From assembly GCA_020859985.1 (NCBI GenBank), contig JAJBVD010000023.1, positions 1-64,000 on the forward strand: a stretch of 64,000 nucleotides of DNA, read 5' to 3'. Below the pieces are notes generated by a model. The model made no database searches. It saw nothing but the letters and a program-made list of their open reading frames with translations, and had not been told where the DNA came from. Source of the stretch: Clostridiales bacterium. Its GTDB lineage: Bacteria; Bacillota; Clostridia; Lachnospirales; Lachnospiraceae. Positions within the stretch are counted from its first letter, which is position 1, and every line of letters begins with the position of its first letter. Positions 3,715-35,520 of this stretch are shown piece after piece. The translations under genes were made by a program, and so were the position numbers.

Positions 3715-4263
3715 TCAACCCTCTGCCGCACGATACGCGTTTAAAACCCATTGGGCAATGATTTCTACCGGATAATCTCCTTCGACCAGATAGTCGATGT
3801 ACCCGCCGTCACGGATAAGTTTGAAATCTGCTTCATCGCCTGCAACACGTCGGTCAAGTTCCTGCTGGGTATCTCCTCTGGCATATCCACGACTGAATAT
3901 TGCGGCATACGTAGGATAAAGATACACCGTAAATATAAAGTCGTCAAGAGCTGTGATGCCACGTGGATTGAGCACAATAACTTTCTTGTTGCCGTCATCT
4001 GTGAAATCCTTGAGAGCAGAACCGTAGTAACACTTCCCAAAAGTAGCATCATAAGAAGTAGACTCAGCAAAGAATGCTTCTGACTGTTTCTTCAAAAATT
4101 CCGTTTCAGATATAAAGTGGTAATCTACACCATCACGTTCTCCTCTTCGCATAGGTCGGGTCGTGTACGTAACTATCTGCTCGAATCCATATTTGGCCAG
4201 GAACTTTGCAAGGGTCGTTTTACCTGAGCAGGTAGGGCCGGCAATTGCTATAACTTTACCCAT
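3715..4263 (-). CDS. Guanylate kinase-like protein (phage)
   Basis: Probably phosphorylates GMP/dGMP with ATP in the cytosol, feeding nucleotides to phage synthesis. The P-loop GPTCSGKTT is at residues 9-17. The GMP-binding stretch is clear (TYTTRPMRRGERDGVDYHF), and a lid-like arginine-rich segment follows further on. At 182 residues it matches guanylate kinases (about 190-205) with a slightly shortened C-terminus. It is the last gene of the phage late operon, next to the chromosome junction, after a small membrane-protein gene with which it is co-oriented. The edge position is typical of accessory cargo. Guanylate-kinase-like domains without catalysis exist, so activity is inferred. Confidence 0.75.
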   Translation of the reverse strand: MGKVIAIAGPTCSGKTTLAKFLAKYGFEQIVTYTTRPMRRGERDGVDYHFISETEFLKKQSEAFFAESTSYDATFGKCYYGSALKDFTDDGNKKVIVLNPRGITALDDFIFTVYLYPTYAAIFSRGYARGDTQQELDRRVAGDEADFKLIRDGGYIDYLVEGDYPVEIIAQWVLNAYRAAEG

Positions 4264-4281
4264 TTTGAATTTTCCTCCCCT

Positions 4282-4407
4282 CTAAGGCCAGCCGTCATCT
4301 TCGTCGTCCTTCCAGTTATCCCAGTCACAGTTCACAAGCAGGTCTACCCACTTAGTAACCGCAGCTATGATAACTGTCAAGCCGACGAAGGACAGTACGG
4401 CGCTCAT
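4282..4407 (-). CDS. Small membrane protein, 41 residues, coupled to the endolysin
   Basis: The ATG overlaps the endolysin stop (ATGA), so translation is probably coupled. One hydrophobic segment (LSFVGLTVIIAAVTKWVDLLV region) is followed by an acidic, Trp-rich tail ending DDEDDGWP. Position inside the lysis cassette suggests an accessory holin or lysis regulator, but the sequence alone does not show function. Confidence 0.6.
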   Translation of the reverse strand: MSAVLSFVGLTVIIAAVTKWVDLLVNCDWDNWKDDEDDGWP

Positions 4408-5120
4408 TTCACATACACCTGCCCGTTATAGTACGCCGCAATCCAACCAGACGGAATCAGCATCCAGATGTCATTGCCGACAGTGCTCAGCTCCTGACAG
4501 GTAACTTTCGTACCCTTGTCCAGAGCGCCATCGTTATCGGTGTCATTCTTCTTGGCATTAGCAGTCAGCTCGGAATGGGTCAGAGCATCCGCATCAGTTC
4601 CCGGAGCCTTACGCACTTTCAGTTCTACCTGCAGAGTGTACGTCGAGCCTATCTTATACGTAGGAGCGCTGGACGAAGACGAACTTGCAGTTGTAGTAAC
4701 CGGTGTATCAAACAGTTCTTTCTCAGCCGCACGTCTCTTGACCAAACCGGAAAGAGTAACTCCTCCCGCCTTGCAGTACGCAGGAATCTTTGCACTGATA
4801 GTAGCAATAGACCTTGTCCCACTTGCTGTCAGCTGCTTGATAGAACCGATATTGAACGCAAACGAAACCAGAGCATCAAACTGATTCTGGTTCCATTTGT
4901 ACGTCGAATAGTATTTATTTACACAGGCCTCTGCAGTTGCCAGATCAGCTTTCAGAAAAGCCGTAGCCTGTGCTTTGGTTATTGTCTGACCTTTCTTTAC
5001 TCCGGACGTGTGCCCATAACCGATTGTCCAGATGCCAACGCTGTCCTGATATGCAGTCAGCTTACAACCTTCAAACTGCTTGATAAGTTCCAATCCGGTG
5101 TCACTGGTTGTTAATCCCAT
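4404..5120 (-). CDS. Endolysin: GH24 lysozyme with C-terminal SH3-like domain
   Basis: A muramidase that hydrolyses peptidoglycan at the end of infection. Residues 1-140 form a phage-lysozyme (GH24) domain with the catalytic pattern E17-x8-D26-x5-T32 and the family stretch WTIGYGHT. A Thr/Ser linker follows. The C-terminal 75 residues have the YTLQVELKVRKAPG and WMLIPSGWIA patterns of a bacterial SH3 wall-binding domain. There is no signal peptide, so export needs the holin encoded four bases upstream. The modular form is usual for Firmicutes phages. Confidence 0.9.
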   Translation of the reverse strand: MGLTTSDTGLELIKQFEGCKLTAYQDSVGIWTIGYGHTSGVKKGQTITKAQATAFLKADLATAEACVNKYYSTYKWNQNQFDALVSFAFNIGSIKQLTASGTRSIATISAKIPAYCKAGGVTLSGLVKRRAAEKELFDTPVTTTASSSSSSAPTYKIGSTYTLQVELKVRKAPGTDADALTHSELTANAKKNDTDNDGALDKGTKVTCQELSTVGNDIWMLIPSGWIAAYYNGQVYVK

Positions 5121-5123
5121 AAC

Positions 5124-5366: not shown

Positions 5367-5380
5367 TTCATTCTCCTTTC

Positions 5381-5719: not shown

Positions 5720-5730
5720 ATCAGTCTCAC

Positions 5731-6072: not shown

Positions 6073-6104
6073 ACTGTTCTCCCTTCTGTGTTATGCTAAG
6101 ATGT

Positions 6105-8212: not shown

Positions 8213-8524
8213 TTATAATTCAACGCCGGTCATCATTGCGATATAGTCAATGTCAGACCGAACCTGCATAGTCGCCAGTTCCTCAGGAGTCATTTCACGC
8301 AGAGCAAAGCCCCACTGAGAATCTCCGAACTTAATAATGTTGATGAGTTCCATATTGGTAAGTGTTGAGGTGGTTTCGCCATCAGACACCGTCACAGCAT
8401 TGCAGTTCCCATCAAAGATATCTTCTGTAATCTCCTGATCAGTAACATAATAGCTGCCATTGATTGACAAATTTTCAAACATAGTACCGTCAGACAGTTC
8501 GACGGAATAGGTTTTATCATCCAT
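8213..8524 (-). CDS. Conserved tail-region protein of unknown function
   Basis: An acidic 103-residue soluble protein lying between the DGR target gene and XkdX. It has no motif I can name. The middle (TVSDGETTSTLTNM) and C-terminus (MTPEELATMQVRSDIDY) look like a compact alpha/beta domain. Its start codon overlaps one of the 13 late-region CATTTTGA motifs. Its place in the tail block suggests a role in fibre assembly, but this is only context. Confidence 0.6.
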   Translation of the reverse strand: MDDKTYSVELSDGTMFENLSINGSYYVTDQEITEDIFDGNCNAVTVSDGETTSTLTNMELINIIKFGDSQWGFALREMTPEELATMQVRSDIDYIAMMTGVEL

Positions 8525-8582
8525 TTTGAAGTTTTCCTTTCTTTTAAAATCGGGGGCACAAGGCCCCCTGAGACCTCAGTCG

Positions 8583-10098: not shown

Positions 10099-10133
10099 AA
10101 AATATAAAAGGCACCAGCGTTATGCCGATGCCT
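10099..10133 (-). terminator. Terminator at the end of the tail-fibre gene
   Basis: GGCATCGGC and GCTGGTGCC pair over 9 bp (two G-T pairs) with a 5-base loop, followed by TTTTATATTTT on the minus strand. The fibre stop codon lies in the loop. It should separate strong structural expression from the DGR and lysis genes downstream. Confidence 0.75.
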
Positions 10134-13100
10134 GTAATACCGCTAACTGAGCTTGCAACTCTGCGATTTGGGATTTAAGTGTTTCGATTTCTGAGTGGTT
10201 GTGTTTAACCATCTCAAATGTTAAAGGAACAACGATATTGCTGTTCCACATCTCTGCCGAACCATCTTCGAGATGGTCTACTGCGATAGGAAGCACTTCA
10301 TTCCAACGTTCTGCTATAAATCCCGGGATATTCTGCAAATAGCGCTCATCGTCTTCCTTTAAGTAGTCGTCCTTATACTGGAACCAATACGTAGGAATAT
10401 CGTACAGAGGCAATATATCTTCCTCTGATAGTTCGGAAACAATATTTTTATATCGTTCAGAAGAAGAACTGTACCTCCACAAGCCACCTGCCGAGCCTAC
10501 ATGCACGTTGGCCGAGCTCGTTATAGTATTGTTATACGCAGCTTGGATCGAAACAAAGTCGCCTCCAATATAGAACGTTTGACCATAAGTCCCATCTCCA
10601 TCCATATAAATATCTGCATACAAGTCAGAATCGCTACGATCATAAAAACGTATTTTTGTATCGCCACTATTGCCTTTTAAGCATATAGCACCAGATACGT
10701 TATTATCTCCAATATAGCAATCGTCTCCCATTAAATTCATGATACCATTACCAAAGGTTACTCGTCCGGTAAATGAAGCCGTTCCACTAACACTTAAAGC
10801 CGAAACGGAAACTCCAGAAGTCTTAATTGAAATAGGAAAATAATTCGTACTGTTATAAGTACAATAAACTCTAAGATCACCGTTATACGCATCTATCTGA
10901 TATGATTTGCCATATGATGAAGGTGATGTGATACTAATATTTCCGCCTTCTGAGTCCGTCCACATGCTAACACTATCACCATAGAAACCAACACCAGTCC
11001 CTGATGCGTAAAAGCTTCCGCCAGAAAACGTACTGGCACCAACCTCAGAACCTAAGATATTAACACCACCATTTACAGTGCGAAATGCATACGCTTCTAT
11101 ATATGTATCCGCATATATACCGTAACCACTTTGTATAACAAAAGCCGGTACACTGTTGGTAGTTGTTCCTATCGACAACGTAACACCGCTTAAGGCAAAT
11201 GAAGATGCATAAACACTGCCAGTAAATGATCCGCCTGTGGCGTTTATAGTGCCTGTGATGTTCGCACTTGTGGCTGTTAATGATCCATCGTGTCCCACTC
11301 TAAAAGGTGCCGAACCTGCATTATCAAATGTTGTTCCAGCCCAGAACGCTGTCCTTCCACCATATTTACCAATCCCGGCCTGATACGTTTCACTTGTTTT
11401 ATCATATATGTCAGTAGGTGTTATATACCATCCACCAACATATCCGTATGTGGCTTCGATGTAAGTGCCGTATAAGTTCAAACCAGTAATAGAGCCTGTA
11501 GCAGTAATTGTCTGTGCAAACAAATTTGTTACATCAATTTCATTTGCGGTAATCGTACCAGCAGCTATCTGAGTAGCTGTAATGGTTCTGGTAATGATGT
11601 TTCCGCCATTGATGAGCGTTGAACCTGCAGCCTTGAACGAACTTGCCATCTGGGTAGAACTTGACACTTCTTCGACCATGATAGCATCGAAGTATGCAGT
11701 AACGGTTGCTGACGAATCCGTAGAACCGCTCTCATCCAGGATCGTACTTCCGCTTGTGTCCGTGATATAGTCTCCGTCAGTATCAGTAATACCTCCAGAA
11801 GCTGTACCTTGAACACCCACACGAATAGATATATACGGGTAAGTGCTGGTTGCAAGATAAGTTCCTTCGATTCTTGTCCAACCGGTTCCAGCAGTTGCAG
11901 TAAACTCGGTGTGCTCAGAATTTGTAGTGTTTATATCAGTGTGACCAACTACAAATATTCGGACAGTGGCTTCCGAGGAACATTTCACGTATACGGATAT
12001 CCGATAATACTGGCCTGCGGTCACAGGAATGCAGCCATAGTTGTTCGCTTCATTGCCAAGATACACATATGCATCGCCAGTGCCCACCATTTTTAGGCAT
12101 TTTGACCCAAACCAAGCTGTGTCCGTCGTTACCGTAGCTGAGCTGACATTCGTAGCCGCATAATACAGTGTGGAATCAGTTATCTGCTCGAAAGTGTCGT
12201 AGTTCGAATACAGATTTCCACCAGTACCGATTGACAACTTGTCCGCAGTGATTGACTCAGCTACCAGTTTATCGCCAGTAATGGTCAAAGCCGCAATATT
12301 CTCACCCGTAATAGTCTCTGCTGCTAAGCTCGAACCTACAATGGAACCTGCTCGGATATTATCAGACGTAATCGTATATGCCGCAATCTGAGTAGCTGTG
12401 ATCGTTCCGGCAACGAGCTTTCCGCCGGTGATGGTCTCGGCCGCTATCAGATCGCCGGTAATTGTTTCCGAAGCAATCTCGTCTGCGGTAATCGTTCCAG
12501 CCGCAATATTTGTTGCAGTAATCGTGTTCGCTGCTATCAAACTGCCAGTAATGGTTCCCGACTTGATATTGCTCGCTGTAATCGTCCCAGAGGCAATCTC
12601 TTCGCTGGTTATAGTACCGGATGCAATATTGCTCGCTGTAATCGTGTTCGCTGCTATCAAACTGCTTGTTATGGCATTTGCCGCAATTAAATCGCCAGTT
12701 ATAGTTTCCGAAGCAATCTCATCAGCAGTGATTGTTCCCGCTACGATATGGCTTGCTGTTATAGAATTGGCGGCAATCAAACTGCCAGTTATTGCTTCTG
12801 CTGCGATTTTTTCAGTAGTAATAGCCTCAGCAGCTATCTCATTACTGGTAATCGTACCCGCAACAAGGTTTGAAGCAGTAATCGTGTTCGCAGCTATCAG
12901 ATTACCAGTTATAGTGTTGGCGGCAATATTATCGGCAGTTATCGTATTGGCAGCTATTTTATCGCCAGTAATGGTATTTGCCGCTATGGTGTCCGCAGTT
13001 ACCGCTCCAGCCGCAATCTTGCCAGCAACAATGGCACCTGCGACAATCTTATCCGCAGTAATCGCGTTATCACTGATGGCGTTTGTTCCATACTGGCCTT

Positions 13101-15606
13101 GAACCCACTGACTACCGTCCCAGTAGTACATGGCGTTACCATCATCAGTGTCGTACCATATGTCGTTGACCGTGTACGCATCATCCTCCATCCCATAAAT
13201 CGGTTCTTCAGACTCATCGAGAATAACATTTCCGGACTCGTCAAGAATTCGATCGTTGGACGGTTCATCATCCTGATAATAGGCAGTTGTTTTACCTACA
13301 GCAACCGTATACGCTCCAGTTGCTTCATCCCACGCTAAGCCAGCTGTTTCTAACGCTTCAGCTATGTTCAATGATATGTCGGTTTCCAATGCTCCATAAC
13401 CAAGAGAAGCTGCTACCCACTCGCTGCCATTCCAATAGTACATAAGGAAGCCATTGGCAGTGTCGTACCAAATGTCATTAATCTCACAATCGGAACCATC
13501 TGGTGCTGAATCCGAATAATAAACAGTATTCTTACCAGCTGCTAAAGTGTAAGCGTTTGTAGCTTCATCGTAAGCAGCTCCGGCAGTTGTTAAAGCAGTA
13601 TTAATCTGCGAAGTAACATCTGTTCCAAGAGCCCCGGTTCCTAATGCCGCTTCTACCCATTGGCTTCCGTCCCAATAGTACATTAGGAAACCATTCGAGG
13701 TGTCATACCAGACGTCATTAACTTGATATGTTCCGGTATCCGCAATCGGGTTACCATCTTCGTCGAGTATGGTGTTTCCGCTTGTATCGAGTAAGTATCC
13801 CTCTGATGGTTCTGTAGCCGAATAGAATACCGAACTCTTACCTGTTGCTAACACGTATGCGTCACTTGCTGTATCATACGCTAATCCGGCATCTTCCAGA
13901 GCGTTTTCTATCAGTGAAGTAACATCAACTGACAGAGCATTATACCCAAGAGATGCTTCAACCCACTCAGTACCGTCCCAATAGTACATCAGCATGTCAT
14001 TGCTGAGGTCATACCAAATGTCGTTTACACTGTACTCGCCACCTGTAGGCTCTTCACTTGCATAGTAAATGGTATTCTTACCAGCTGCTAAAGTGTAAGC
14101 GTTTGAGGCTTCATCGTAAGCAGCTCCAGCAGTCGTTAAAGCTTCTTTAATATTGGAACTTACCGTTTCTTCCAGAGCTCCATAACCTAAAGCAGCCTGA
14201 ACCCACTCAGTGCCATTCCAGTAATACATAAGGAAACCATTGGCAGTGTCATACCAGACATCATTGACCTGAAGGCTGCCAATATCGACAATTGGGTCTC
14301 CGTCCTCATCCAGAACCTTATCTCCGGATTCATCAAGAACATATCCATTCCCCGGAGCCGTATCTGAATAGTAAATTGTGTTCTTTCCTGAGGCTATCGT
14401 GTAAGCATCCGTAGCGGCATCATAGGCAGCACCAGCAGTTGTCACAACATCGCTGATAGTCGTCCGCACATCACTTGATAAAGCATCCATTCCAAACGTT
14501 GCAGCAACCCATTTTGACCCATCCCAGTAGTACATGGCATAGTCATTGGCAGTATCAAACCACAAATCGTTTACTGAGTAGTTTCCGCCACTCGGTTCTG
14601 TGCTTTGATAATAGGCTGTATTCTTACCAGACGCCAAGGTGTACGCATCAGTTGCCTCATCATACGCAAGACCGGCTTCAGTCAAGGCCGCGTTAATCTC
14701 GTCAGTTACATCCGAGGCCAAATTTTCCAGTGTAATGGTTCCTGAAGAAATCTGAGTACCGTTAATCGTTCCGACAGTCAGATTTGCGCAGTTCAGATTC
14801 ACCACATCAATGGTGCCGGCGTCGATAGTTCCGGATGTCAGACATGATGCACTTATAGTTACACCATTCAATTCGCCCGTGATATATGCATCAGCGATTG
14901 TTGCGTTCGTCAGCAAACCAACAGTAACAAACAGATTCTTTACCGATTCTGTCTCAACATTTAAAAGCTCGATATCCGCGTATTTGGCGTCCATATCCTC
15001 AGTCTTGAGATAATAGTTGTCCAAATACGTAATCGAGGCATAATTCGCGGTTAACGTACCAGTTGTCACGTAGGTAGCCGCAATATCTTCGGCAGTAATA
15101 TACTTCGACGTCAAATACTCCGTTGAAACGTAATTCGCAGACAGGTATTCTGTGGTAATCGTGGTTGCTGCAAGGTCATTAACCGTTGCCTGTAAAGCCG
15201 TAAGCGAATTGATATCCGCATATGTAGCCGTCAGATACTCAGTTATCGTAGAATAAGTTTCCAGATAGGTAATATCCGCGAAGTATGCATCTAATTTCTG
15301 GAATTCGCCGTAATAGGCCTGTACAATCTCCTCGGTTTCAGTTGCTGTATATCCAGATGACGGCGTAGAGAGATTACTGGTAACTGTAGCCGTGTGATTC
15401 TCGATGGTGACAATAACTCTGTCTCCGGCTCTGCAATCGGATGCTTCCACAATTGCCGTCAGTGTAGTCGCCCCATCCAGCATGACATACCGTTTACCGT
15501 CGCTCTCGTACACCGTTCCATATGCAGTACCAACCGAACTGGTATTGCTATCCGTGTCGTTTGTTGTAGCGGCAAAGCTTTTCAAAAGAGAGCTTGACAA
15601 CTCCAT
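10120..15606 (-). CDS. Giant tail-fibre/tail-tip protein with S74 chaperone end
   Basis: An 1828-residue trimeric fibre protein. The first 280 residues are repeats of short beta/coil segments. Then come six copies of a module of about 65-90 residues containing NDxWYDT...MYYW(D/N)G(S/T)xWV. After these follow about 26 decapeptide-like units of the type ITADKIAANT, which probably form a beta-helical shaft. A carbohydrate-binding-like section precedes a stalk. The C-terminal 110 residues are an intramolecular chaperone (peptidase S74): SSERYKNIV holds the Ser/Lys pair, and a coiled coil ends the chain. Self-cleavage would release the chaperone after trimer folding. The ATG at 15606 follows GGAGGTGAT. 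Confidence 0.85.
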   Translation of the reverse strand: MELSSSLLKSFAATTNDTDSNTSSVGTAYGTVYESDGKRYVMLDGATTLTAIVEASDCRAGDRVIVTIENHTATVTSNLSTPSSGYTATETEEIVQAYYGEFQKLDAYFADITYLETYSTITEYLTATYADINSLTALQATVNDLAATTITTEYLSANYVSTEYLTSKYITAEDIAATYVTTGTLTANYASITYLDNYYLKTEDMDAKYADIELLNVETESVKNLFVTVGLLTNATIADAYITGELNGVTISASCLTSGTIDAGTIDVVNLNCANLTVGTINGTQISSGTITLENLASDVTDEINAALTEAGLAYDEATDAYTLASGKNTAYYQSTEPSGGNYSVNDLWFDTANDYAMYYWDGSKWVAATFGMDALSSDVRTTISDVVTTAGAAYDAATDAYTIASGKNTIYYSDTAPGNGYVLDESGDKVLDEDGDPIVDIGSLQVNDVWYDTANGFLMYYWNGTEWVQAALGYGALEETVSSNIKEALTTAGAAYDEASNAYTLAAGKNTIYYASEEPTGGEYSVNDIWYDLSNDMLMYYWDGTEWVEASLGYNALSVDVTSLIENALEDAGLAYDTASDAYVLATGKSSVFYSATEPSEGYLLDTSGNTILDEDGNPIADTGTYQVNDVWYDTSNGFLMYYWDGSQWVEAALGTGALGTDVTSQINTALTTAGAAYDEATNAYTLAAGKNTVYYSDSAPDGSDCEINDIWYDTANGFLMYYWNGSEWVAASLGYGALETDISLNIAEALETAGLAWDEATGAYTVAVGKTTAYYQDDEPSNDRILDESGNVILDESEEPIYGMEDDAYTVNDIWYDTDDGNAMYYWDGSQWVQGQYGTNAISDNAITADKIVAGAIVAGKIAAGAVTADTIAANTITGDKIAANTITADNIAANTITGNLIAANTITASNLVAGTITSNEIAAEAITTEKIAAEAITGSLIAANSITASHIVAGTITADEIASETITGDLIAANAITSSLIAANTITASNIASGTITSEEIASGTITASNIKSGTITGSLIAANTITATNIAAGTITADEIASETITGDLIAAETITGGKLVAGTITATQIAAYTITSDNIRAGSIVGSSLAAETITGENIAALTITGDKLVAESITADKLSIGTGGNLYSNYDTFEQITDSTLYYAATNVSSATVTTDTAWFGSKCLKMVGTGDAYVYLGNEANNYGCIPVTAGQYYRISVYVKCSSEATVRIFVVGHTDINTTNSEHTEFTATAGTGWTRIEGTYLATSTYPYISIRVGVQGTASGGITDTDGDYITDTSGSTILDESGSTDSSATVTAYFDAIMVEEVSSSTQMASSFKAAGSTLINGGNIITRTITATQIAAGTITANEIDVTNLFAQTITATGSITGLNLYGTYIEATYGYVGGWYITPTDIYDKTSETYQAGIGKYGGRTAFWAGTTFDNAGSAPFRVGHDGSLTATSANITGTINATGGSFTGSVYASSFALSGVTLSIGTTTNSVPAFVIQSGYGIYADTYIEAYAFRTVNGGVNILGSEVGASTFSGGSFYASGTGVGFYGDSVSMWTDSEGGNISITSPSSYGKSYQIDAYNGDLRVYCTYNSTNYFPISIKTSGVSVSALSVSGTASFTGRVTFGNGIMNLMGDDCYIGDNNVSGAICLKGNSGDTKIRFYDRSDSDLYADIYMDGDGTYGQTFYIGGDFVSIQAAYNNTITSSANVHVGSAGGLWRYSSSSERYKNIVSELSEEDILPLYDIPTYWFQYKDDYLKEDDERYLQNIPGFIAERWNEVLPIAVDHLEDGSAEMWNSNIVVPLTFEMVKHNHSEIETLKSQIAELQAQLAVLQASA
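12243..13075 (-). repeat. Coding tandem repeat (about 30 bp) inside the fibre gene
   Basis: About 26 imperfect units of 30 bp encode decapeptides of the form (I/V)(T/V)(A/G)xxI(A/V)A(N/G/E)(T/A). Identity at DNA level is high enough for recombination or slippage to change shaft length. It is a coding repeat and not a CRISPR array. Confidence 0.8.
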
Positions 15607-21900: not shown

Positions 21901-24900
21901 GAAACCAGAGAACGCTTCAATCATCGCAAATGAGGCACCAAGAGCCAGAATCGCAGCACTAGCATTGGCTAATTTGTTTTTATCTATTTGCGCCAGCACG
22001 AGCATAGCGGCCGCCATTACACCAATAGCCACAGCAGCAGCCAGCAAAGTTCCAGCACCAGATTTAATTTTTCCACCAGCGCTTACACTCTTCGAGGTTG
22101 CGTTAGCCAGAGTGACAAATACAATCAATAGCCCAACTATTTCCATCATGGCAACCATAGCCTGATCCATGTCGCTTGAATTAATTTCAGAAAGCATTTG
22201 CATTGCTTTGGCAATAACGATAACACTCACTGTCATAGCAAGTATGGATGTACCGCCACTTTTATTTCCCGCTAAACGAGCGAGAAGCATGACAGCCGCT
22301 AATTCGGTTAATATAATGGCGAGCTTCGGAATTGCTGCCACAATGGTTTTCAAAGGCATAGCCGCTATATCATCCAATATACTAATGAAAGCCTTCAATG
22401 ATATAACGGTTGCTAAAATAGAAACAGAACTGCCTATTGAACTTCCCTTACTTGCCGAAGAAATTAGGATCATAGCTGCAGCTAATTCAGCAAGTAAAAT
22501 ACCCAATGCCGCAAGATCGTCGATGGTGTATGAAGTCTGTGTAAGGTCATTCAATGCCGACACAAGAAGCTTTAAAGCTACAGCAATGGCCAAAATTGTT
22601 ATCGCCGTTTTCTGCAGAGTCTTTTCGCCTCTTGATAACACTGGCGAAGTCACCTGCAAAGCCACCACAGCCAATGTCAAAGCACCTATTATGGCGAGAA
22701 TAGCATTAGAAGCGTTGCTGCTTACAGTAACAGAAGACAGTCCTTGAAGAGCATCTACAATGATCCAAAGAGCAGCCGCTAAAGCAAGAATAGTCACACC
22801 CATTCCTTTGAATGATCCAGATAGGCCTTTCTTACTCATGAGTCCGCTCACACCCTGCAATATCAATAAAAGTGCGGCAAGTGCGGCAAGTGTAATTCCA
22901 GCTTTCTTTAAATCGTTAACATCCTGCTTTCCAAGTGCAATCAACACTCCCGCTAAAACAGCTAAAGACAAGCACAATGTAACTATCTTGCTTGTCCCGG
23001 ATTTGGAAGACGCTGTTGAATTTGAAATAGAATTTTCAGTTTGTGTTACAGCCGATGCTGTGTTTGTCACCCTCTGCATAATTCCGCTAAGCGAGTCGAA
23101 GAAACCACCAACGGATAACGCTGCTTTTCCAAAATTACTAATAGTGCCTAGTAATTTAAACAGCATCACCAAATAACCTATTCCCACTATAGCCGCGGCA
23201 ATTGCACCAAAATTAATATTGAAATCGGCATCACCGATTGACTTATTAAGCTTCGATAGTGCATCTTTAACCGCATCTATAACAGTTACTGTATTGTCTA
23301 TATTTTCGCTTACTTCACTTCCATCACCAAGTTCAGCTGAAGAAACATGTGACATGTTAACAATTTCTGAAATACTATTCAGAAATGCCTGAACACCATC
23401 GCTAATTGAAATTCCAGATAAGAACCCAAAAGCTTTCTGTAGTTTTTCGATAGCAGTGGTTATTGCATTAACTGCACTCGGAAACAGCTCACTCAGCTCA
23501 GTTAAAGTCGGGAACTTGAATCCTTTATCGCCATTCTGGAATGCTTCAATCAGAGATTTAATCTTCTCGGAAATCTTGTCCAGAGTCGGTGTATCGAAAT
23601 TCTTAATCTTGTTGATGAAATCCTGAATAGCTTCTGCAGCTTTCGGAAATTTCTCTTTAATCTTGTCAAGACTTGGGAAATCGAAAGTCAGTTTTCCATC
23701 CTTAATAGTCGTAAAGAGGTCTTTAAATGTCTGTTTAACATCTTCCAGTGTCAGATCATCCAAAGTGCCAAGCCATTCCGTGAAATTTCCAAACCACTTC
23801 TGGATGGTTGGGAAGCCATTTTGAATTTCATCCTTCAAACTCTCGAAGACATTCTTCAAAACCTTGATAACCTGCGCTACTTTAGGAATCTCAGCCGCTT
23901 TGCTGACCATGCTCTTAAGCCCATTTCCAGCTTTCTTAAGTAACGGAACCATAGCGTCAATTGCTTTATTCGCAATATCGTTCGATTCATACCACTGACG
24001 GAAACGATCAATAGCCAGACCCAAATCTCCAGTAAATCCAAGAACATCTATATCCAATCCGCCAAGAGTATTGGAAAATAGCTTGAATACGCGGCTAATA
24101 ACTGCAGAAACGGTAGTCTTGATAATGCTAAGAATCGAGAACAAACCTCTGAATGTTCTCTGCAACTTATTTGCGGTCTCTTGATTAATCAGAAGCTTCT
24201 CAGTAAATCCTTCAATAGCTGCGATGACATTGTAAATCTGCTCCGATGTAGTCGTACCGAAAACATTCTTCCAAGCAGAACCGACGGTGCCGAGAATACG
24301 TGAAAGACCCTCGATGGTATTCAAGATCGAATCCCAAAGAAGTTCTCGACCGCTCGCCTTGCCGCCATTCAAGTCATCTACGAACTGCTGAAGCTCATCG
24401 TCAGTCAGCCCCATATTGGTTTTTAATTTCATGAGGGCTTCTGCTTCTTCTTCAGTAGCACCGGCTGCGATGAGAGCTTCCTCGGTATAATTATCCCAGT
24501 TCAGAGTTGAACCATCCCAGACAGCATTTACAATAGTCTGAAGCTGTTCTGCATCGTAACCAAGCTCTTCGAGAGCAGATGTTCGTGCTGCGCCATTCCC
24601 GTAGGTTCCTTTAACAATGTTTTCAACAATTTGCTGACATTCGGAAAGATTGGTTGCTGTTTCTTCCGTGTACTTGTCCCAGTCAAGAGTAGAACCGTTC
24701 CAGACCTTATCTACTATTTTCTGCAATTCCTCGGCATCGTAGCCAAGCTCTTCCAATGCTGATACACGGTCCGCACCATTGCCATATACACCCGCAATAA
24801 TGTCTTCAACGACATCTTGGCATTCTTCAAGAGAATATTTAGCTTCACTTGCGGAAGATGTAGTCACGCCACCCAGTTTAGCGATGGCATCATTCAACAA

Positions 24901-26187
24901 ATCAGCGCTCAGCCAGCCTTTAGAAAGTGTATTCTCAAGTCCTCCGGCATCTTCAATCATTTCCTCAGTAACCTTGCCGGTATTGATGGCAAGTTCCTGC
25001 ATAGTTTCATTGAAGTCATCTGCACTGATGCCCACGTCAGTAAATTTCCGTAAAAGCTGATCCCAAGAACTGTCCATGGCTCCTGCGAGTTTAGTGTTCC
25101 TGCTATCTGCTGATTTGTCAATGAAAGCACCAAGAGCTTCGGATACTGCAGTCCAACCCTCTTTTGCTTCCTCAAGATTACCAAAGACAGTTTCCCATGT
25201 TTCAGTCCATCCAGAACCCATTGCTTCCTTCAAGGTGTCAATCAACATGGAGAAAGTCTTTACTTCAGTAGCCGCTGCGGATGCCTTAGCACCTATCTCG
25301 GTTGTGGCATCACCATAGTCTTTCAATGTTTCAATCAAGACTTCGGTTGTCAACCACTGATAAGATAAAGAATCTCTAAAGCCGTCAGTAGCATCAATAG
25401 CATCCGACAAAGTACTTCCGCTGGCATTCTTAGTAAGAACCTTATACATGCCGTCAGAAGTCTCTTTAACAGTCCCACAGGCAACAGCGGTCTCAAGCAA
25501 CTGCTCCTTGAATTCTTTTGTCGCCATGTTTGCATTCTCGATAGACTTCCAGTCAATGAGCGCCACATAACCAGTCGACAGAGCCTGAGCAAAGTTATAC
25601 ATAGCTCTGGATGCTTCGTTTGCATTAGCACCAGACACTGCTGCTTCGTTACTGATACCCTTGATGGCAGTAACAGCATCCTCAAGACTTACACCAGAGT
25701 TGGTGAACTTACCAATACTCTCAGTCATATCTGAAAATGAGTAAATGGTGTCATCTGCATACTGGTTCAGTTCTTCCAAATACTGGTTAACAGTGTCTAT
25801 ATCTTCTCCTGTACTTGACATAATTGTCTGTACAGAGTTCATTTTCAGTTCATACTCATCCCAACCTGCAGATACCGGCTCTGTTGTCACTGCAGAAACC
25901 AGTGCATCAGCCATGGACTCAATCTTTCGGGTCACGTCCTGAATTACAGTAGCCGCAGAAATACCGAATACCGAAAATCTACTGGTCATGGACTCAATGC
26001 CAGACAATACACTGTTGAAGTTCATCTTACTCAGAGTGTTGCTGACATTATCGAGTGTTGTGGCAGAGGTATCCTTGCTTAAGCTCTGCTTAAATTTGGT
26101 AAGAGAATCGCTACTTTCTTTTATGCCCTGTTCAAACTCGTCGTTATCAAAGGTCATTTTGACGATTCGTTCATCTACGCTGCTCAT
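18955..26187 (-). CDS. Tail tape measure protein
   Basis: A 2410-residue protein that fixes tail length and lies in the tail lumen. The N-terminal third is helical with the usual tape-measure start (DERIVKMTFDNDEFEQGI). Two repeats containing ALEELGYDAEELQ/ALEELGYDAEQLQ lie around residues 450-560. The middle (about residues 1010-1600) has many hydrophobic helices for membrane passage. The C-terminal third has at least five repeats containing SWETLGGGLAEFG. I start at the ATG at 26187 behind GGAGG; the upstream stop overlaps it (ATGA). By the usual 1.5 angstrom per residue rule the tail would be about 350 nm. Confidence 0.95.
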   Translation of the reverse strand: MSSVDERIVKMTFDNDEFEQGIKESSDSLTKFKQSLSKDTSATTLDNVSNTLSKMNFNSVLSGIESMTSRFSVFGISAATVIQDVTRKIESMADALVSAVTTEPVSAGWDEYELKMNSVQTIMSSTGEDIDTVNQYLEELNQYADDTIYSFSDMTESIGKFTNSGVSLEDAVTAIKGISNEAAVSGANANEASRAMYNFAQALSTGYVALIDWKSIENANMATKEFKEQLLETAVACGTVKETSDGMYKVLTKNASGSTLSDAIDATDGFRDSLSYQWLTTEVLIETLKDYGDATTEIGAKASAAATEVKTFSMLIDTLKEAMGSGWTETWETVFGNLEEAKEGWTAVSEALGAFIDKSADSRNTKLAGAMDSSWDQLLRKFTDVGISADDFNETMQELAINTGKVTEEMIEDAGGLENTLSKGWLSADLLNDAIAKLGGVTTSSASEAKYSLEECQDVVEDIIAGVYGNGADRVSALEELGYDAEELQKIVDKVWNGSTLDWDKYTEETATNLSECQQIVENIVKGTYGNGAARTSALEELGYDAEQLQTIVNAVWDGSTLNWDNYTEEALIAAGATEEEAEALMKLKTNMGLTDDELQQFVDDLNGGKASGRELLWDSILNTIEGLSRILGTVGSAWKNVFGTTTSEQIYNVIAAIEGFTEKLLINQETANKLQRTFRGLFSILSIIKTTVSAVISRVFKLFSNTLGGLDIDVLGFTGDLGLAIDRFRQWYESNDIANKAIDAMVPLLKKAGNGLKSMVSKAAEIPKVAQVIKVLKNVFESLKDEIQNGFPTIQKWFGNFTEWLGTLDDLTLEDVKQTFKDLFTTIKDGKLTFDFPSLDKIKEKFPKAAEAIQDFINKIKNFDTPTLDKISEKIKSLIEAFQNGDKGFKFPTLTELSELFPSAVNAITTAIEKLQKAFGFLSGISISDGVQAFLNSISEIVNMSHVSSAELGDGSEVSENIDNTVTVIDAVKDALSKLNKSIGDADFNINFGAIAAAIVGIGYLVMLFKLLGTISNFGKAALSVGGFFDSLSGIMQRVTNTASAVTQTENSISNSTASSKSGTSKIVTLCLSLAVLAGVLIALGKQDVNDLKKAGITLAALAALLLILQGVSGLMSKKGLSGSFKGMGVTILALAAALWIIVDALQGLSSVTVSSNASNAILAIIGALTLAVVALQVTSPVLSRGEKTLQKTAITILAIAVALKLLVSALNDLTQTSYTIDDLAALGILLAELAAAMILISSASKGSSIGSSVSILATVISLKAFISILDDIAAMPLKTIVAAIPKLAIILTELAAVMLLARLAGNKSGGTSILAMTVSVIVIAKAMQMLSEINSSDMDQAMVAMMEIVGLLIVFVTLANATSKSVSAGGKIKSGAGTLLAAAVAIGVMAAAMLVLAQIDKNKLANASAAILALGASFAMIEAFSGFAKGKMSSIIALAAVITVLAGAVAALALFVDPSALKNATDCLSELLITLSVLEAVTGLMSKGTSSVVTLAGLALVVAGLALVFQMLGSMENPSNLLTVADAMTEVILALSVMMVAMIAIPSNPASAVSKCVGLVALLGTLVAVAGVVATLNNFVPDFMSLVGSGFEVIGEWIGELIGGIVNGVGDATEGTGAIESMSSMLTSLTDSVSSLSSVDSSILDNASTLASAILKLTGAELLDAIAGFISGDSSMETFGAELEAFGNSMVAFAAATSGLSSDSLSGAIDAASALVDLENSIPSSDGLYQKLVGEQSWETLGGGLAEFGSALVSFSDSVSGESFDADAISSSATAASALVEVLNAIPSEGGWLDGALGTEDWSTLGDGLEDFGEALKGYSEQVSGEAFDTAAIEASATAAGSLVTLLDAIPSSGGYLQKFSGEKDWETLSGGLVSFGLALLLYSATVSGQNIDTEAIAASAAAGESLATLLDAVPSADGYLQKFTGEKSWETLGGGLAEFGEALGNFSTYVADLNTDDIDTAITASKKLAEFQDSLGSDGGWWTFFTGEDTTFTDFGENLEALGTAFKSFAASISGTTWSDTTSMTEALEDIVNIVALSKDAGDGSKLKKIVGNLEEIGNAEVSGYVSALSESGAELQAAGETAVSEIVTGMTNASAELSDSISAGAATLVESFAIAISEEITTNQATFNDTFSVAMTTMAEVGSVTLALSVDDFESAGTVLIDAVADGIGDGSEDVSTAATSVLSSSVSKIRNRYQSFYNSGKYLMEGLAQGITNNQYKAINAATTTATNTLKALNEALDEHSPSKATRQSGQYFDEGFALGIADLAGRVADESSSVGSVALSALAGVSDKISSYLSEEQSFTPSITPVLDLSNVSSGAQQISGMLGRSYGLNIDTAKINTLSAAMQNRQNGSTNDDVVSAIKKLNNTMSTDRQNIYNVNGVTYDDGSNVSSAVQQLVRAASIARRA

Positions 26188-28330: not shown

Positions 28331-28657
28331 TTAATAATATATTTTGTATACGTCATGATGAAGATTATCCGACGTAAAATGGCGGTCATAGATAGTCATA
28401 GAAAGCATTGCCACCTTTGCCGGAATCTCGCTGTCCGGGTTCCTATCTATAACCGTCACCGTGTACCTGACATTGTGAATGTATGGAGCATTGTCAGCAA
28501 ACTGCGTGTCGCCGGTATCCCGCTCGTAAACGATGCATGGATAAACCATTTTGATTGTTTCAGGCGGTTGAAAGTATACCTGAGCACTCGCCGAGGAACC
28601 GCATGTGTCGACCATAATGTCACTCAGTATCTGATGAAGATTCTTCCTCTGGCCCAT
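28331..28657 (-). CDS. Tail terminator/neck-like protein
   Basis: The 108-residue alpha/beta protein contains PCIVYERDTGDTQFADN and ends before the tube gene, the usual position of the tail terminator. I start at ATG 28657 (MGQRKNL), 8 bases after AGGAGG; the frame extends nine bases further to a GTG. It overlaps the upstream gene by 38 bases. Confidence 0.7.
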   Translation of the reverse strand: MGQRKNLHQILSDIMVDTCGSSASAQVYFQPPETIKMVYPCIVYERDTGDTQFADNAPYIHNVRYTVTVIDRNPDSEIPAKVAMLSMTIYDRHFTSDNLHHDVYKIYY

Positions 28658-28990: not shown

Positions 28991-30781
28991 TTACTCAGCA
29001 GCGGTACCTGCAGACTCCAGAACGATTGCAGAATACGGCTTAACCAGAGCGCCGGAGCAACGAGTCTCCATCAGGTACTTCTGCTGGTTGTAGTCGATAT
29101 CGAAATCATCAAAGGTATTTACTGCTCCACCCTTGTCTGCACCAACCTTGTAGTCGTTCAGGTTGATGATAATCGCATATACGTCATGCACAAGCGAGCT
29201 AGAATCCGTTCTGGTGCAGTTCTCCATAACCGGAACCGGAACAATTTCCTTTACCATCATAGCAGTAGCCAGCTCATTGACATCCTTATAGATACGTCTC
29301 TGGTTGAGGTCCTTCAGCAGAAGCATCTCAGTCAGATAAGATTCCGCGATGTACATAACCGGAGAGCCCGAGCCTCTGTAGTCGATACGAGAACGAACAG
29401 CCTGATCAATGAGTGCGGATGCCAGTTCCTCATCGGTATCCGGAGTCACCGTAGACTTGATGGTATACAGGTCATCATCCGTAAGGATCGGGCGGATATG
29501 AGACTCCTGAATCTTATCCTCGGAGTCAGCAAGTCTGCCATCACCGATCAGGAACGCACGAGCCAGTTCCTCATCCAGCATCTGACGCATCTCCTGCTTG
29601 ATCCACGCAACAACGTCGAAATCCGTGATGTCCAGAATGTCATCACGATCCAGTTTCTGCTTCTTATACACAGTCTGCGGATCGGTTGTTCTCTTAAGCA
29701 GCGTGAAGACCTCTTCCTTCTTCTTGTTGCCCTTGATGTAACCTAATGCACGTGCCTCATCTGCGGTAATGTCCGCGTGGATGGTCTTGATCCGGCTGAA
29801 CGGGGTGTGGCTGACACCGTTCATAACCTTGGACACCCAGTCCATCTTCCGAGAAATGAAATCCGGCTGCTTCTCGATAGTTCTGTAATCCGGAAACAGA
29901 TAGTCGATATCTGTAATGCCGTACTCATCCGCATGGGACAAGAATGAATCTTTCAGGCTCCCCAGACGCTTAGCATCCTTGAAGATCACATCCATCTGAT
30001 CATGGCTGAGAACATTCGGCTGCTGCTGGGTGCTCTGGTCAAACACGTTAACTTTCATGTCGCTTCCTCCTTCTGAAATGCCGCTATGTGCGGCAGTTTT
30101 GTCGTCATCTTCGTCATTGTCCTTCTTGTCATCATCGGATGAGTCAGAGGACTTCTTACTCTGAGCTGCTGCCCCAACCAGATAGTTGAGGACTTTCTTT
30201 TGCTTTTCATCCATGGTGTCAATAACATCCTGAACGGTCTCGTCGTCATCAGACTTCGAGCTCTCGTTCTTGTCATCATCTGCATCCTCAGACTTCTTCT
30301 CGTCATCCGCAGCGGAGTGAAACAGTTCATCAAGATTCATTCCGCTATAAATGATCGCTTCATCGTCTGAATCAGCTCCATGAGCCAGTGCAACTGAGTC
30401 GATGTAAGCGCCAGGATTCGCCCCAGCAAGTACCAGACTCACCTCACGAATAATGCCGTGCACAACATTCGACCCTTTCTGCTGCAGGTCATCTGCCCAG
30501 ATAGACAAAGCTGTGATGTCACCATGTTTTAGCTGTTTCTTTACATTCTGGGCCCGATCAGTATCGTTCAGATAACCGTAGGCATAAACGCCATCTCCGC
30601 GGTTCTCCAGATACGCATGACCCAGAACATTCTCCGGGTTCTTATGATCGTGGCTCCATACGAGCGGTACCTTAGCTCCGTCGCAATCTTTAAATGCATC
30701 TGTCATGATCATCCGACCATCACTACATCTGATATTGCTACGAGTCGCCCAACCGCAAAGGTCGTATCCTTCATAAGCCAT
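28991..30781 (-). CDS. Prohead protease-major capsid fusion with internal capsid start
   Basis: One 596-residue frame joins three parts. Residues 1-130 are an HK97-type prohead protease, with H44/H46 in WSHDHKN and the Ser nucleophile in ALSIWA (S93). Residues 150-235 are an extremely acidic Asp/Ser/Lys stretch, probably a scaffold-like delta domain. Residues 242-596 are an HK97-fold capsid (VFDQSTQQ start; YRGSGSPVMYIAESYL; CSGALVKPYSAIVL). At 30058 an in-frame ATG lies 8 bases after AGGAGG, so capsid alone (355 residues) can be made from the same message. The full-length chain would be a minor, self-cleaving protease-scaffold-capsid form. Confidence 0.9.
   Translation of the reverse strand: MAYEGYDLCGWATRSNIRCSDGRMIMTDAFKDCDGAKVPLVWSHDHKNPENVLGHAYLENRGDGVYAYGYLNDTDRAQNVKKQLKHGDITALSIWADDLQQKGSNVVHGIIREVSLVLAGANPGAYIDSVALAHGADSDDEAIIYSGMNLDELFHSAADDEKKSEDADDDKNESSKSDDDETVQDVIDTMDEKQKKVLNYLVGAAAQSKKSSDSSDDDKKDNDEDDDKTAAHSGISEGGSDMKVNVFDQSTQQQPNVLSHDQMDVIFKDAKRLGSLKDSFLSHADEYGITDIDYLFPDYRTIEKQPDFISRKMDWVSKVMNGVSHTPFSRIKTIHADITADEARALGYIKGNKKKEEVFTLLKRTTDPQTVYKKQKLDRDDILDITDFDVVAWIKQEMRQMLDEELARAFLIGDGRLADSEDKIQESHIRPILTDDDLYTIKSTVTPDTDEELASALIDQAVRSRIDYRGSGSPVMYIAESYLTEMLLLKDLNQRRIYKDVNELATAMMVKEIVPVPVMENCTRTDSSSLVHDVYAIIINLNDYKVGADKGGAVNTFDDFDIDYNQQKYLMETRCSGALVKPYSAIVLESAGTAAE
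30059..30074 (-). promoter_or_regulatory. Internal ribosome-binding site for the capsid domain
   Basis: AAGGAGGAAGCGAC precedes an in-frame ATG at 30058, exactly where the acidic linker ends and the capsid fold begins. The purine run also encodes SEGGSD, so it is silent in the fusion but an excellent initiation signal. Confidence 0.7.
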
Positions 30782-30964
30782 TTTGAAATTCCTCCTCTTA
30801 TTGGCTGTCGATTCGTCTATTGGTTCTTCTCATCTGTTCGGAATGTGGTTAAGCTCTCATTTCTAGTTAGATTCAACTAACCTATAGGCAAATTTTTAGC
30901 CTGCTTTATCAGTGATTTCGCTAAGCTTAATATTCTTGCTTACACTACTCTCACCGTTGGCTTC
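30782..30964 (-). other. Portal-capsid intergenic region with in-frame portal extension
   Basis: The 183 bases hold no separate gene. After the portal stop (TAA at 30965-30967) the same frame stays open for 22 codons (EANGESSVSKNIK...) to a second TAA at 30896. A hairpin TTAG...CTAA lies near 30870. Loss of a longer portal tail by a new stop, or readthrough, are both possible. Confidence 0.4.
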
Positions 30965-32527: not shown

Positions 32528-32532
32528 TATAC

Positions 32533-32770: not shown

Positions 32771-32778
32771 ACCAATAA

Positions 32779-34524
32779 TTATTCGAACGCATCTTTGTTA
32801 ACCTTAAAGGCCACATACGCGTCCATCATAGCTGCTACGGCGTCAATCTTCTGGTCGTAACGTTTCTTATACAACTTCCGATTGCCGTTTGTATCTTCCA
32901 TGACAATGCAGTTCCCCATCGTGAATGTCATGAGACTCTGATCGAAAAGCAGCATTCTCTCCTCAGACAAATGCTTCAATTCTCCCAATGGAACAGACTC
33001 TGTTCGGGAACCCTGTGGAACTTTCTCAATACCGAATGCTCCATTCTCCAATTCCCACCGGTTCACAAACTCTTTAGCATTGTATGGGTCATAACCGAAA
33101 CAACGAACATCATAGTCATGCTTCTGGATAAACTCGTCCAGCTCATCATAAACTTCCATCATGTCAAGCACAGAACCTTCCATAATTACGAGACTGTCTT
33201 CGTCCATGAACTCATCATACTTTGCTCGCATAGCCGCCTGCAGCTTCATAAGAGTAAGACTTGTAATATAGCAGCGAGTCTTAACGCCAAACTCTCCATG
33301 AGACAGAGGAAACAGAAAAGTGAAAGCACAGAAGTCGTCTCCCTGTGACATATCTGCACCAAGAGCACAAGGCATCTCCCAGAATTCGCGATGTTGATGC
33401 GGCAGAGTTTCTTCGTACGTAAAGTAATACGTATAGCCCTCCATAGGAATTCCGAATCTCTTTGCCAGAATGTCGTTTCTGGTTGCTGGTGCCTGCTCCG
33501 CTCTCTCTACCTCAATCTGATAAGTTTCATAGCTAACAGTCTTCCCAAGATTCGGGTTAGCCTTAATCCACATATCCGGATCATTTACTTCGTCAATACT
33601 GTCCAGCTTGTACCACCAGATAGACACGTGGGGATTGATGTACTCTCCTTTAAGGATGTTCATCAACTCCATTTTGATTGTATCGCCACTTCCGTTTCGA
33701 ACTGTACCCTCCGAACTGGTAGCTACAATCAGCCAGTCGTCTACCTTAGCTGCACCCTGCTCAATAGCGCCGACGACATCCTCTCTGACATCACCCGATA
33801 GCCATTCATCCACAGTAGCCACCTTAGGTCTCATACCCTGCAGCTTATGAATACTCATCGGACGAATCTCAATCAGAGAACCGGTAAGGAAATTTTCTAT
33901 TCCTTTCTTGGTTGGGCATAGCTTCTGGCGTTTAGCTCTGGAACCTGTGGTGTTTTGGAGAGAACCCTCCGTAAGGAATTGGAACAGAGGACCACGAGAA
34001 CGTGTAATAGCGGTTCGAATCGGCGACATAATTTCCTCAGCCTGCTTCATGGTCGGAGCCGTAGTCATCTGATAGGTTGTAGACAAGTCAATGTTCAGGA
34101 AATAGCTCTGAATACATGAATCGTACAAAGATTTCGAAGCACCTCGTCCAACAATCAAATACTGCTTGTTTCGAAGACGCTTCTTAACGCTCTTGTATTC
34201 GTAATGACCGCCATGCCCGGACTTATTTGGAACGTATACATCGTGCTCGACAAAATAATACCAACCGAAAATGTCTTCAGCCCAGAGCTTAAAAGTATCC
34301 AGCAAATGAAGGTCTGCTCCATCGGTCAAAGTCATTTCATTCTCACAATAAGCCACAAACCCCTCAACTGCTTCATCGTCATAGTAAAAATTCGGATCAG
34401 CAATCAGATCGTCGATGAGATTCATTTGCATAGAGATTTCCTCGCAGACCGGTATGTCACCTCTTAATACGGCATCTCGAAACTGGCCGTAATAAATGGG
34501 AGTGGCCGTGTTCGATAACGCCAT
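32779..34524 (-). CDS. terL: Terminase large subunit
   Basis: ATP-driven motor and nuclease that cuts and packs phage DNA through the portal. The Walker A-like segment is LIVGRGASKS; the Walker B region is VATVDEW. The C-terminal nuclease has acidic residues in GADMSQGDDFCAF and FGYDPYNAKEF. The 581-residue length is normal. I use ATG 34524 behind TAGGTG; a GTG three codons upstream directly follows the preceding stop. Confidence 0.95.
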   Translation of the reverse strand: MALSNTATPIYYGQFRDAVLRGDIPVCEEISMQMNLIDDLIADPNFYYDDEAVEGFVAYCENEMTLTDGADLHLLDTFKLWAEDIFGWYYFVEHDVYVPNKSGHGGHYEYKSVKKRLRNKQYLIVGRGASKSLYDSCIQSYFLNIDLSTTYQMTTAPTMKQAEEIMSPIRTAITRSRGPLFQFLTEGSLQNTTGSRAKRQKLCPTKKGIENFLTGSLIEIRPMSIHKLQGMRPKVATVDEWLSGDVREDVVGAIEQGAAKVDDWLIVATSSEGTVRNGSGDTIKMELMNILKGEYINPHVSIWWYKLDSIDEVNDPDMWIKANPNLGKTVSYETYQIEVERAEQAPATRNDILAKRFGIPMEGYTYYFTYEETLPHQHREFWEMPCALGADMSQGDDFCAFTFLFPLSHGEFGVKTRCYITSLTLMKLQAAMRAKYDEFMDEDSLVIMEGSVLDMMEVYDELDEFIQKHDYDVRCFGYDPYNAKEFVNRWELENGAFGIEKVPQGSRTESVPLGELKHLSEERMLLFDQSLMTFTMGNCIVMEDTNGNRKLYKKRYDQKIDAVAAMMDAYVAFKVNKDAFE

Positions 34525-34533
34525 ATGTTTCAC

Positions 34534-35139
34534 CTACTTGTCCTTTTGCCCTTTTTTCGGGTTGATTGAATTGTCGTCATCAATGCCGTTCTTAGCATTG
34601 TATTTCTTCAGCAGCTTGTTAACTTCAACACCAAGTACATAAGTTGCCGTCTGAGAACCAATGTTACTGAGTGTTTGCGTGGCAATGTTCTTGGTCACAT
34701 CTTTCACAATCTGGCTGCCCAAACTGGCCTTCTTCTTTTCCTCAGGCTTTGAAGTGAGTTCCGTATACTTCTTTTCGTTTTCCAGACGCTTTATAGCTGC
34801 AGATAACTCGGAATCGGTCATGTTTTTCACCGGTTTCTTCGTATCTGTAGTGGTAGAAGATTTGGTCTCATCAGAGTCTTTTTTCTTCTCTTCCTCAGAA
34901 GATTTGCTTGAAGAACTGGATGATTTCTTAAGAATCCGGTCTTTCAAACTTGTCTTAGTTGAAGTTGAGTCCGATCCAGATGAGGAACCGCCACCTGCAG
35001 CTTTCTTTTCCTCTGAAGTCTTCTGATCACTGCCTAATGGATAGGGCGGACCATTTCGAACGCCCCAATGAGCACCTTTAATTTGGTAATGGTAAAGCTC
35101 ATCTGTAGGACGCCAGATTAAATAGTCATAAGCATTCAA
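34534..35139 (-). CDS. Head-associated protein with N-terminal YHYQIKGAHWGVRNG motif
   Basis: The first 40 residues carry LYHYQIKGAHWGVRNGPPY, a short motif that recurs at the N-termini of many Firmicutes phage structural proteins (HGxKGMxWGVR type). Then follows a Ser/Lys/Glu-rich low-complexity stretch (about residues 40-105), a helical part and a basic C-terminus. It lies between a connector and the large terminase. A capsid-internal or packaged protein is likely; the enzyme role, if any, is unknown. Confidence 0.6.
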   Translation of the reverse strand: MNAYDYLIWRPTDELYHYQIKGAHWGVRNGPPYPLGSDQKTSEEKKAAGGGSSSGSDSTSTKTSLKDRILKKSSSSSSKSSEEEKKKDSDETKSSTTTDTKKPVKNMTDSELSAAIKRLENEKKYTELTSKPEEKKKASLGSQIVKDVTKNIATQTLSNIGSQTATYVLGVEVNKLLKKYNAKNGIDDDNSINPKKGQKDK

Positions 35140-35505
35140 TTAACTCACCTCCTCTGCAGGGTCAACTGCTACATTCAATCTCCACTCATACTCTTTCTCC
35201 AGCTCTTTGTAAGACTCCAGAACTGCAGTGCTCTGTGGCGGGTCAAACATTCGCCGGACCTTGATGTGCATGTAACTCACAACATCGTTCAGTCGTGAAT
35301 CAGTTCCAATAAAGTCACTCCACACCGCAGAGCTATCTGAAATGGAGAATCCTTCATCCGGACCGACGCCTAACTGATTGAGAACTGAGAAAACTGAATT
35401 GATATGAATGATAACGTCAGGGTCGAAATACTCATAGTCTTCAGCTATGCCGAGTAATTTCTTAACCGACGTAAGAATGCTGTCTGTTACGGCAACTGTA
35501 GCCAT
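35140..35505 (-). CDS. gp6-like head-tail connector
   Basis: An all-helical 121-residue protein (VTDSILTSVKKLLGI; FDPDVIIHINSVFSVLNQLG; FKSY-like VRRMFDPPQST). This matches the pattern of HK97 gp6/SPP1 gp15 connectors that extend the portal ring. Its location upstream of the large terminase and not after the capsid is a rearranged order. Confidence 0.75.
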   Translation of the reverse strand: MATVAVTDSILTSVKKLLGIAEDYEYFDPDVIIHINSVFSVLNQLGVGPDEGFSISDSSAVWSDFIGTDSRLNDVVSYMHIKVRRMFDPPQSTAVLESYKELEKEYEWRLNVAVDPAEEVS

Positions 35506-35520
35506 TTTGAAAACCTCCCC

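Follow-up and report, generated by a model that had tools for sequence, protein, structure and literature searches.

An oriented eight-letter word spaced through the late genes of a phage clade, a candidate element of late transcription

The stoperators of mycobacteriophage L5 are repeated sites near gene starts and are bound by the repressor. The start-associated sequences of the cluster K phages are also repeated close to gene starts, at ribosome binding sites (PMC7302621). Nick sites, demonstrated in phage tf, in T5 and in phiKMV-like phages, are short and strict words on one strand, clustered in a part of the genome. In phage tf, a strict 9-mer occurs at 14 sites, all on the same strand; sites with a single substitution are not nicked, and the nick positions are similar in related phages and mostly located in one half of the genome (PMC3517423). 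In phage SPβ, the single-chain polymerase YonO transcribes DNA, and 37 late genes are silent without it. This enzyme, termed highly processive, is reported to start transcription at a single site, upstream of yonK, and its promoter sequence is left open in the sections of PMC5467207 cited here. The nvRNAP of phage phiKZ, a multisubunit double-psi-barrel enzyme, starts at the last G of the late motif TATG (PMC4666361).

The word reported here, TCAAAATG, can be compared with each of these systems. With the phiKZ late promoters it shares a phage-owned enzyme, here predicted to be of the double-psi-barrel type, and the shape of a very short directional motif that ends in ATG and whose last G is the start, a mapped start in phiKZ but a predicted one here; the phiKZ motif has only four letters, and the enzyme of the present phages is single-chain (PMC4666361). 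As in SPβ, where the late genes depend on YonO, the gene of a single-chain polymerase precedes the late genes, but the one reported start upstream of yonK, the lack of TCAAAATG enrichment and the lack of similarity between the two polymerases set SPβ apart (PMC5467207). The nick sites resemble the word in their strictness, single strand and clustering, although no tie to a transcription module appears in the cited part of PMC3517423. The L5 and cluster K sequences are longer and are not spaced through coding sequence (for cluster K, in the cited part of PMC7302621).

Copies of the word in the window

The window, the whole stretch of 64,000 nucleotides analyzed, contains the late genes of a prophage, including those for endolysin, reverse transcriptase, tail, capsid, portal and terminase. 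The phage genes identified in it are located on the minus strand. A sequence-only reading of this DNA had reported 13 copies of a motif on one strand. This is correct for the 8-mer CATTTTGA on the plus strand, found 13 times from 4261 to 35503 and never reversed in the whole window, but not for the 9-mer of its title, CCATTTTGA, which has 10 copies. The transcribed, minus-strand form of the 8-mer is TCAAAATG (Table 1). The array is indeed confined to the late region: the word is absent before 4261, after 35510 and from the 60-80 kb part of the same contig.

Table 1. Positions of the word and of associated features in the window.
Feature	Position	Strand	Context
TCAAAATG copy	4261..4268	-	ATG is the start of the guanylate kinase-like gene 3715-4263
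TCAAAATG copy	8522..8529	-	ATG is the start of ORF 8213-8524; hairpin and T-run just upstream
TCAAAATG copy	12098..12105	-	within ORF 10120-15606, frame 0
TCAAAATG copy	14510..14517	-	within ORF 10120-15606, frame 0
TCAAAATG copy	16461..16468	-	within tail ORF 15613-16674, frame 2
TCAAAATG copy	19125..19132	-	within tape measure ORF 18955-26208, frame 2
TCAAAATG copy	21515..21522	-	within tape measure ORF 18955-26208, frame 0
TCAAAATG copy	23817..23824	-	within tape measure ORF 18955-26208, frame 2
TCAAAATG copy	26155..26162	-	within tape measure ORF 18955-26208, near the ORF start, frame 1
TCAAAATG copy	28547..28554	-	within ORF 28331-28666, frame 1
TCAAAATG copy	30779..30786	-	ATG is the start of the head protease/capsid gene 28991-30781
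TCAAAATG copy	33670..33677	-	within the terminase large subunit gene (Ile-Lys-Met), frame 1
TCAAAATG copy	35503..35510	-	ATG is the start of ORF 35140-35505; first copy past the polymerase gene
Single-chain RNA polymerase-like protein, 937 aa, PHROG 4291	37089..39902	-	carries helix-turn-helix segments and the DFDGD signature; may be the protein that reads the word
Early module within the window	36505..63689	-	own oriented word ATTATATT (plus strand AATATAAT)
Reverse transcriptase gene	6105-7349	-	in the longest gap of the array

TCAAAATG ranks first among the 8-mers of the late region in an order-3 Markov test, with 13 copies against 0.88 expected (P ~1e-11). No other 8-mer of that region is equally enriched in this test; such words, like reversed copies, had been named as evidence to the contrary. 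The chance expectation of about 0.5 given earlier is fair for the late coding strand, but too low for the whole window with both strands, where dinucleotide shuffles yield 4.2 copies, with a maximum of 9.

The last 11 copies, from 12 to 36 kb, follow one another in steps of 1833-2891 bp, in agreement with the 1.8-2.9 kb noticed before. The coefficient of variation (CV) of this spacing is 0.12, and 2 million random placements never produced such evenness. The widest gap (4261 bp) contains the reverse transcriptase gene, assigned earlier to a putative DGR cassette, but it is not the single wide one, as it is followed by a second of 3576 bp. Four of the 13 copies cover a start codon and nine are within genes, three per reading frame. 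As the word is present in all three frames, at start codons and between genes, it is read as nucleic acid and not as protein.

The 9-mer is balanced in the 3.8-Mb host assembly, with 27 and 32 copies on the two strands, 10 of these in this phage. With this balance, a host motif was rejected, and a role in host segregation, one of those proposed for the array, is unlikely. A Chi-like octamer pattern along the whole replicon was not found either: besides this balance in the host, the early modules are at expectation.

Conservation of the word in related phages

The first set for comparison consisted of the window and 17 phages or prophages with a PHROG 4291 gene, ranging from Clostridia to Lactococcus and Actinobacteria; the bounds of the late regions, whose G+C content varies from 35 to 61%, were set by hand. 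The 18 late regions contain 158 forward copies of TCAAAATG and a single reversed one. Among the 8-mers with at least 3 copies, the word ranks 1 to 3 in 14 of the 18 phages, and lower in Annihilus (16), BitterVaud1 (28), 1706 (113) and Mudcat (746). The late region of phage 1706 (L016:1-24000) displays another oriented word, CTATTCAA, with 11 forward copies and one reversed. The sequence is strict. When 15 late regions are pooled, TCAAAATG occurs 131 times in forward direction against 13.7 expected, and its 24 single-letter variants reach at most about twice their expectation, the highest being TGAAAATG (24, expected 13.9) and TCAAAATA (20, expected 9.8).

For replication, the word was fixed beforehand, and two new scans gave 160 loci. 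In the 72 replication loci, the polymerase gene is followed by more than 3 kb of sequence, and the already-seen L055, L084 and L118 are excluded; among the 42 of the 160 that were left out, the loci above 9 kb continue for less than 0.5 kb past the gene, and the others are short. No stretch of more than 2 kb in any of the 72 exceeds 90% identity with one of the first 18. Grouped at 90% identity, the 72 form 60 clusters. Downstream of the polymerase gene, 269 forward and 6 reversed copies were counted (expected 32 and 17), or 217 and 6 with one locus per cluster. Upstream of it, 110 loci yield 49 forward and 20 reversed copies (expected 46 and 37), and the gene itself holds 3 and 2. Only L065, L080 and L092 (3/72) are without a forward copy, and L092 has two reversed ones. 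The first kilobase after the polymerase gene is free of copies; beyond, there is one per ~1.9 kb.

Reversed copies are below expectation, with 4 instead of 12.4 in 14 phages and 6 instead of 16.9 downstream in the replication loci, as would be the case for a signal that has a direction and is read on DNA. The late genes almost all share one orientation; one site of FP_oengus is located inside a gene of the opposite strand, and its direction is unchanged.

From 69 of the 72 loci (without L065, L080 and L103), 52 distinct site patterns were taken. Their 150 gaps have a mean of 1.88 kb and a CV of 0.47. Only 5 of the 150 are shorter than 850 bp, whereas 2000 random placements gave 56 such gaps on average and never fewer than 35, which indicates a minimum spacing. 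In the same patterns, the best single-letter variant, TAAAAATG, has 34 forward and 13 reversed copies, compared with 202 and 3 for the word itself. At position 9, 199 of these 202 copies have G or A; in another count, by frame, ~90% of the internal copies in each frame have a purine there. In the first set without the window, the spacing is also more even than random (Fisher p 1.7e-10, 16 phages), although related phages share positions and six of the 16 individually have p >0.1; Annihilus, with 3 sites, was left out of this test.

As for the position relative to genes, 64 of the 158 sites of the first set are at starts or between genes and 94 inside genes. The word's own ATG is the called start codon in 38 of the 158. 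In a separate count, a Shine-Dalgarno-like 4-mer precedes 28 of 39 own-ATG sites compared with 14% of random positions. By manual reading, a further 15 sites are separated from the called start that follows by 10-41 bases, and a Shine-Dalgarno-like 4-mer is present in every one of these stretches, although the gene caller favors such starts. The protease-capsid gene carries the word on its start codon in 10 of 13 phages, ReqiPoco6, P078 and 1706 being the exceptions (manual reading). Terminator-like sites share gaps with the word modestly above expectation (odds ratio 3.3, p 0.014, 11 of 18 phages). Neither strongly conserved flanks nor an AT-rich upstream region was found at the word, and an extended promoter with conserved flanks was rejected for that reason.

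The early module and the phage polymerase

The early module of the window's contig has its own word: ATTATATT occurs 42 times in forward direction, in all frames, and never reversed, its range continuing from the window into the 64-77 kb part of the contig. In 40 loci, the related word GATATT has 740 forward and 117 reversed copies upstream of the polymerase gene and 317 and 112 downstream; for TATATT, these numbers are 723 and 210 upstream and 165 and 99 downstream. Some actinophages show the bias of ATATT words genome-wide, and the first 50 kb of Schwartz33 contain 36 ATATTT and 38 ATATTC, all forward. The spacing of the early word is random or clustered where tested, with a CV of 0.9 to 1.7. 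An oriented and spaced code with different words for the two modules, as suggested from the window, thus holds across relatives, and the module bias of the early word favors a reading of both words in terms of transcription.

The polymerase gene is located upstream of the late genes of the window. The PHROG 4291 profile, in which the family bears the name RNA-dependent RNA polymerase, covers residues 12-930 of the 937 (E=0), and DFDGD, the catalytic DxDxD signature, is invariant in 12/12 and 31/31 aligned polymerases. Pfam matches a C-terminal helix-turn-helix in the window protein; a second, near residue 110, is visible in the alignment and is matched in Annihilus. In total, the window protein and three relatives have Pfam helix-turn-helix matches. 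A sequence search of solved structures with the polymerase gave only helix-turn-helix and designed or unrelated matches.

Between the window polymerase and YonO of SPβ, nothing significant was obtained by blastp or hhalign; the kinship is therefore one of kind and not demonstrated by sequence. The SPβ polymerase, the one scanned among three SPβ-type proteins, had no Pfam match. TCAAAATG is not enriched in SPβ, Perkons and CB473P1, which carry SPβ-type polymerases (L027, L047, L046), and no oriented late word of these three comes close to it in strength and regular spacing. Hence, TCAAAATG as an element of all SPβ-type polymerases was rejected.

An HNH endonuclease is encoded in 17/17 phages searched, and the polymerase in all 15 whose gene stretch was part of the search. 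Since the HNH protein is as universal as the polymerase, presence does not separate the two candidates.

Possible roles of the word

With its strict sequence, direction, confinement to the late module, independence of the reading frame, minimum spacing, conserved codons in the terminase gene and conservation across hosts, TCAAAATG is almost certainly a conserved functional DNA element of the late module of this clade. Its direction and late confinement and the switch of words near the polymerase gene point to late transcription, in which it probably acts. Whether it is the initiator promoter of the phage polymerase is more delicate: this is the most likely single reading, though with slightly less than even odds. 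The word with its purine resembles an initiator by analogy with the phiKZ late promoters, and we infer three things: the action in transcription, the polymerase as reader and the G as start. A single-chain polymerase of the double-psi-barrel type with helix-turn-helix segments would recognize TCAAAATG itself, in the form TCAAAAT-G(+1)-purine, with the final G as +1 and the purine at +2. It would start anew at each copy, so that the long late operon would be fed every 1 to 2.5 kb. Also in favor are the scarcity of reversed copies, the purine at position 9, the 15 sites shortly before called starts, the terminator-like sites that share gaps with the word, and the lack of enrichment in the three phages with SPβ-type polymerases.

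Several observations fit less well with a promoter. Promoters need no spacing rule, and even spacing is not a known promoter rule; for the phiKZ late promoters, we know of no even spacing or intragenic array. Moreover, 94 of 158 sites are intragenic and 38 of 158 are on called start codons, and where a Shine-Dalgarno-like 4-mer precedes the word's own ATG, the protein could not be made from a transcript beginning at that G. Also counted against it are the low rank of the word in four phages, the three loci without a forward copy, the lack of strongly conserved flanks and of an AT-rich upstream region, the equally universal HNH protein and the one reported start site of YonO. The spacing suggests a limited reach for each copy; this may reflect re-initiation, re-arming or pausing. 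One conceivable form, for which we would claim somewhat less than for the promoter, is a range-limited relay: to keep the operon transcribed by re-initiation or re-arming, the polymerase would have to come upon a new TCAAAATG after each 1 to 2.5 kb, also inside coding sequence, and the second word of the early module would mark another transcription regime. If this were true, selection would act on the spacing as such, and phage genomes would carry a further layer of information.

The main rival is linked to packaging, a role already suggested for the array: the TCAAAATG strand would be cut at the word by a nickase of the phage, possibly the HNH endonuclease encoded close to the terminase gene, and localized interruptions would be left in virion DNA. 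The strictness, the single strand and the kept positions are those of the tf sites, the HNH protein is present in every phage searched, and the site of FP_oengus keeps its direction in an opposite-strand gene. Nicking does not predict the halt of the word at the module boundary or the early module's own word, nickase and nicks are putative in these phages, and the tf sites are, by our reading of Table 1 of PMC3517423, unevenly spaced; we consider it unlikely. A pacing or re-arming of the elongating polymerase, in which the enzyme or a partner pauses, reloads or regains processivity at the word after starting elsewhere, appears rather improbable. It would account for the minimum spacing of ~0.85 kb with a mean of 1.9 kb, and for the copies at places of little apparent use to a promoter, within long genes or on start codons; no array of such a kind is known to us. 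Reversed copies should be neutral for pacing, yet they look avoided, and YonO is termed highly processive (PMC5467207).

The remaining explanations have little probability. A phage factor that binds or cuts the word in late mRNA would be in line with one transcribed strand and with the late module only, but such an RNA signal does not need the avoidance of reversed copies and is without a candidate protein, which makes it quite improbable. Still less credit is given to operators of the stoperator type, that is, to the repressor silencing of late genes in lysogeny proposed from the window. Oriented, asymmetric sites, many of them close to gene starts, would suit a repressor; on the other hand, the word is unchanged across hosts and intragenic in all frames, and it is retained in Camille, a phage listed as lytic (PMC7302621). 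The least probable origin, to which we assign hardly any weight, is that the word results from codon usage, from the context of start codons or from conserved motifs of the proteins. Some copies are indeed at start codons and some on conserved residues, as in the terminase gene, where the word coincides with Ile-Lys-Met in 15 phages. There, however, the lysine is AAA in 11 of 15, whereas at 25 other conserved lysine columns, which use AAG, AAA makes up 94 of 354 codons, and the isoleucine is ATC in 13 of 14, the most conserved codon of 349 columns. Together with the occurrence in all frames, this codon choice refutes a coding by-product for most copies; the strict word and its restriction to late genes argue in the same direction.

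Late transcription thus being the preferred reading, TCAAAATG is a candidate cis-element for another class of single-chain phage polymerases, unchanged from Lactococcus to Streptomyces phages. The promoter of YonO was left open in the cited part of PMC5467207, and TCAAAATG is a candidate for a different enzyme class. Among the papers listed by literature searches, those for the word itself being judged by title and start of the abstract, no report of the motif was found. A signal of eight letters repeated at intervals within coding sequence would amount to a rule of genome organization; we found none of this kind described for phages. In addition, the word makes the late modules of this phage clade easy to recognize.

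In the records of Lactococcus phage 1706 (L045:583-3672) and Rhodococcus phage ReqiPoco6 (L041:306-3026), the polymerase homologue is labeled as a structural protein; from these labels, it may be carried in the virion. The polymerase gene is followed by a small conserved gene, PHROG 4303 (L012:23000-23269; L041:3036-3278; L045:3676-3936), of 80-89 aa in the three scanned. Homologues are present in 15 of the 17 phages searched, the other two being without that stretch, and the protein is a possible partner of the polymerase.
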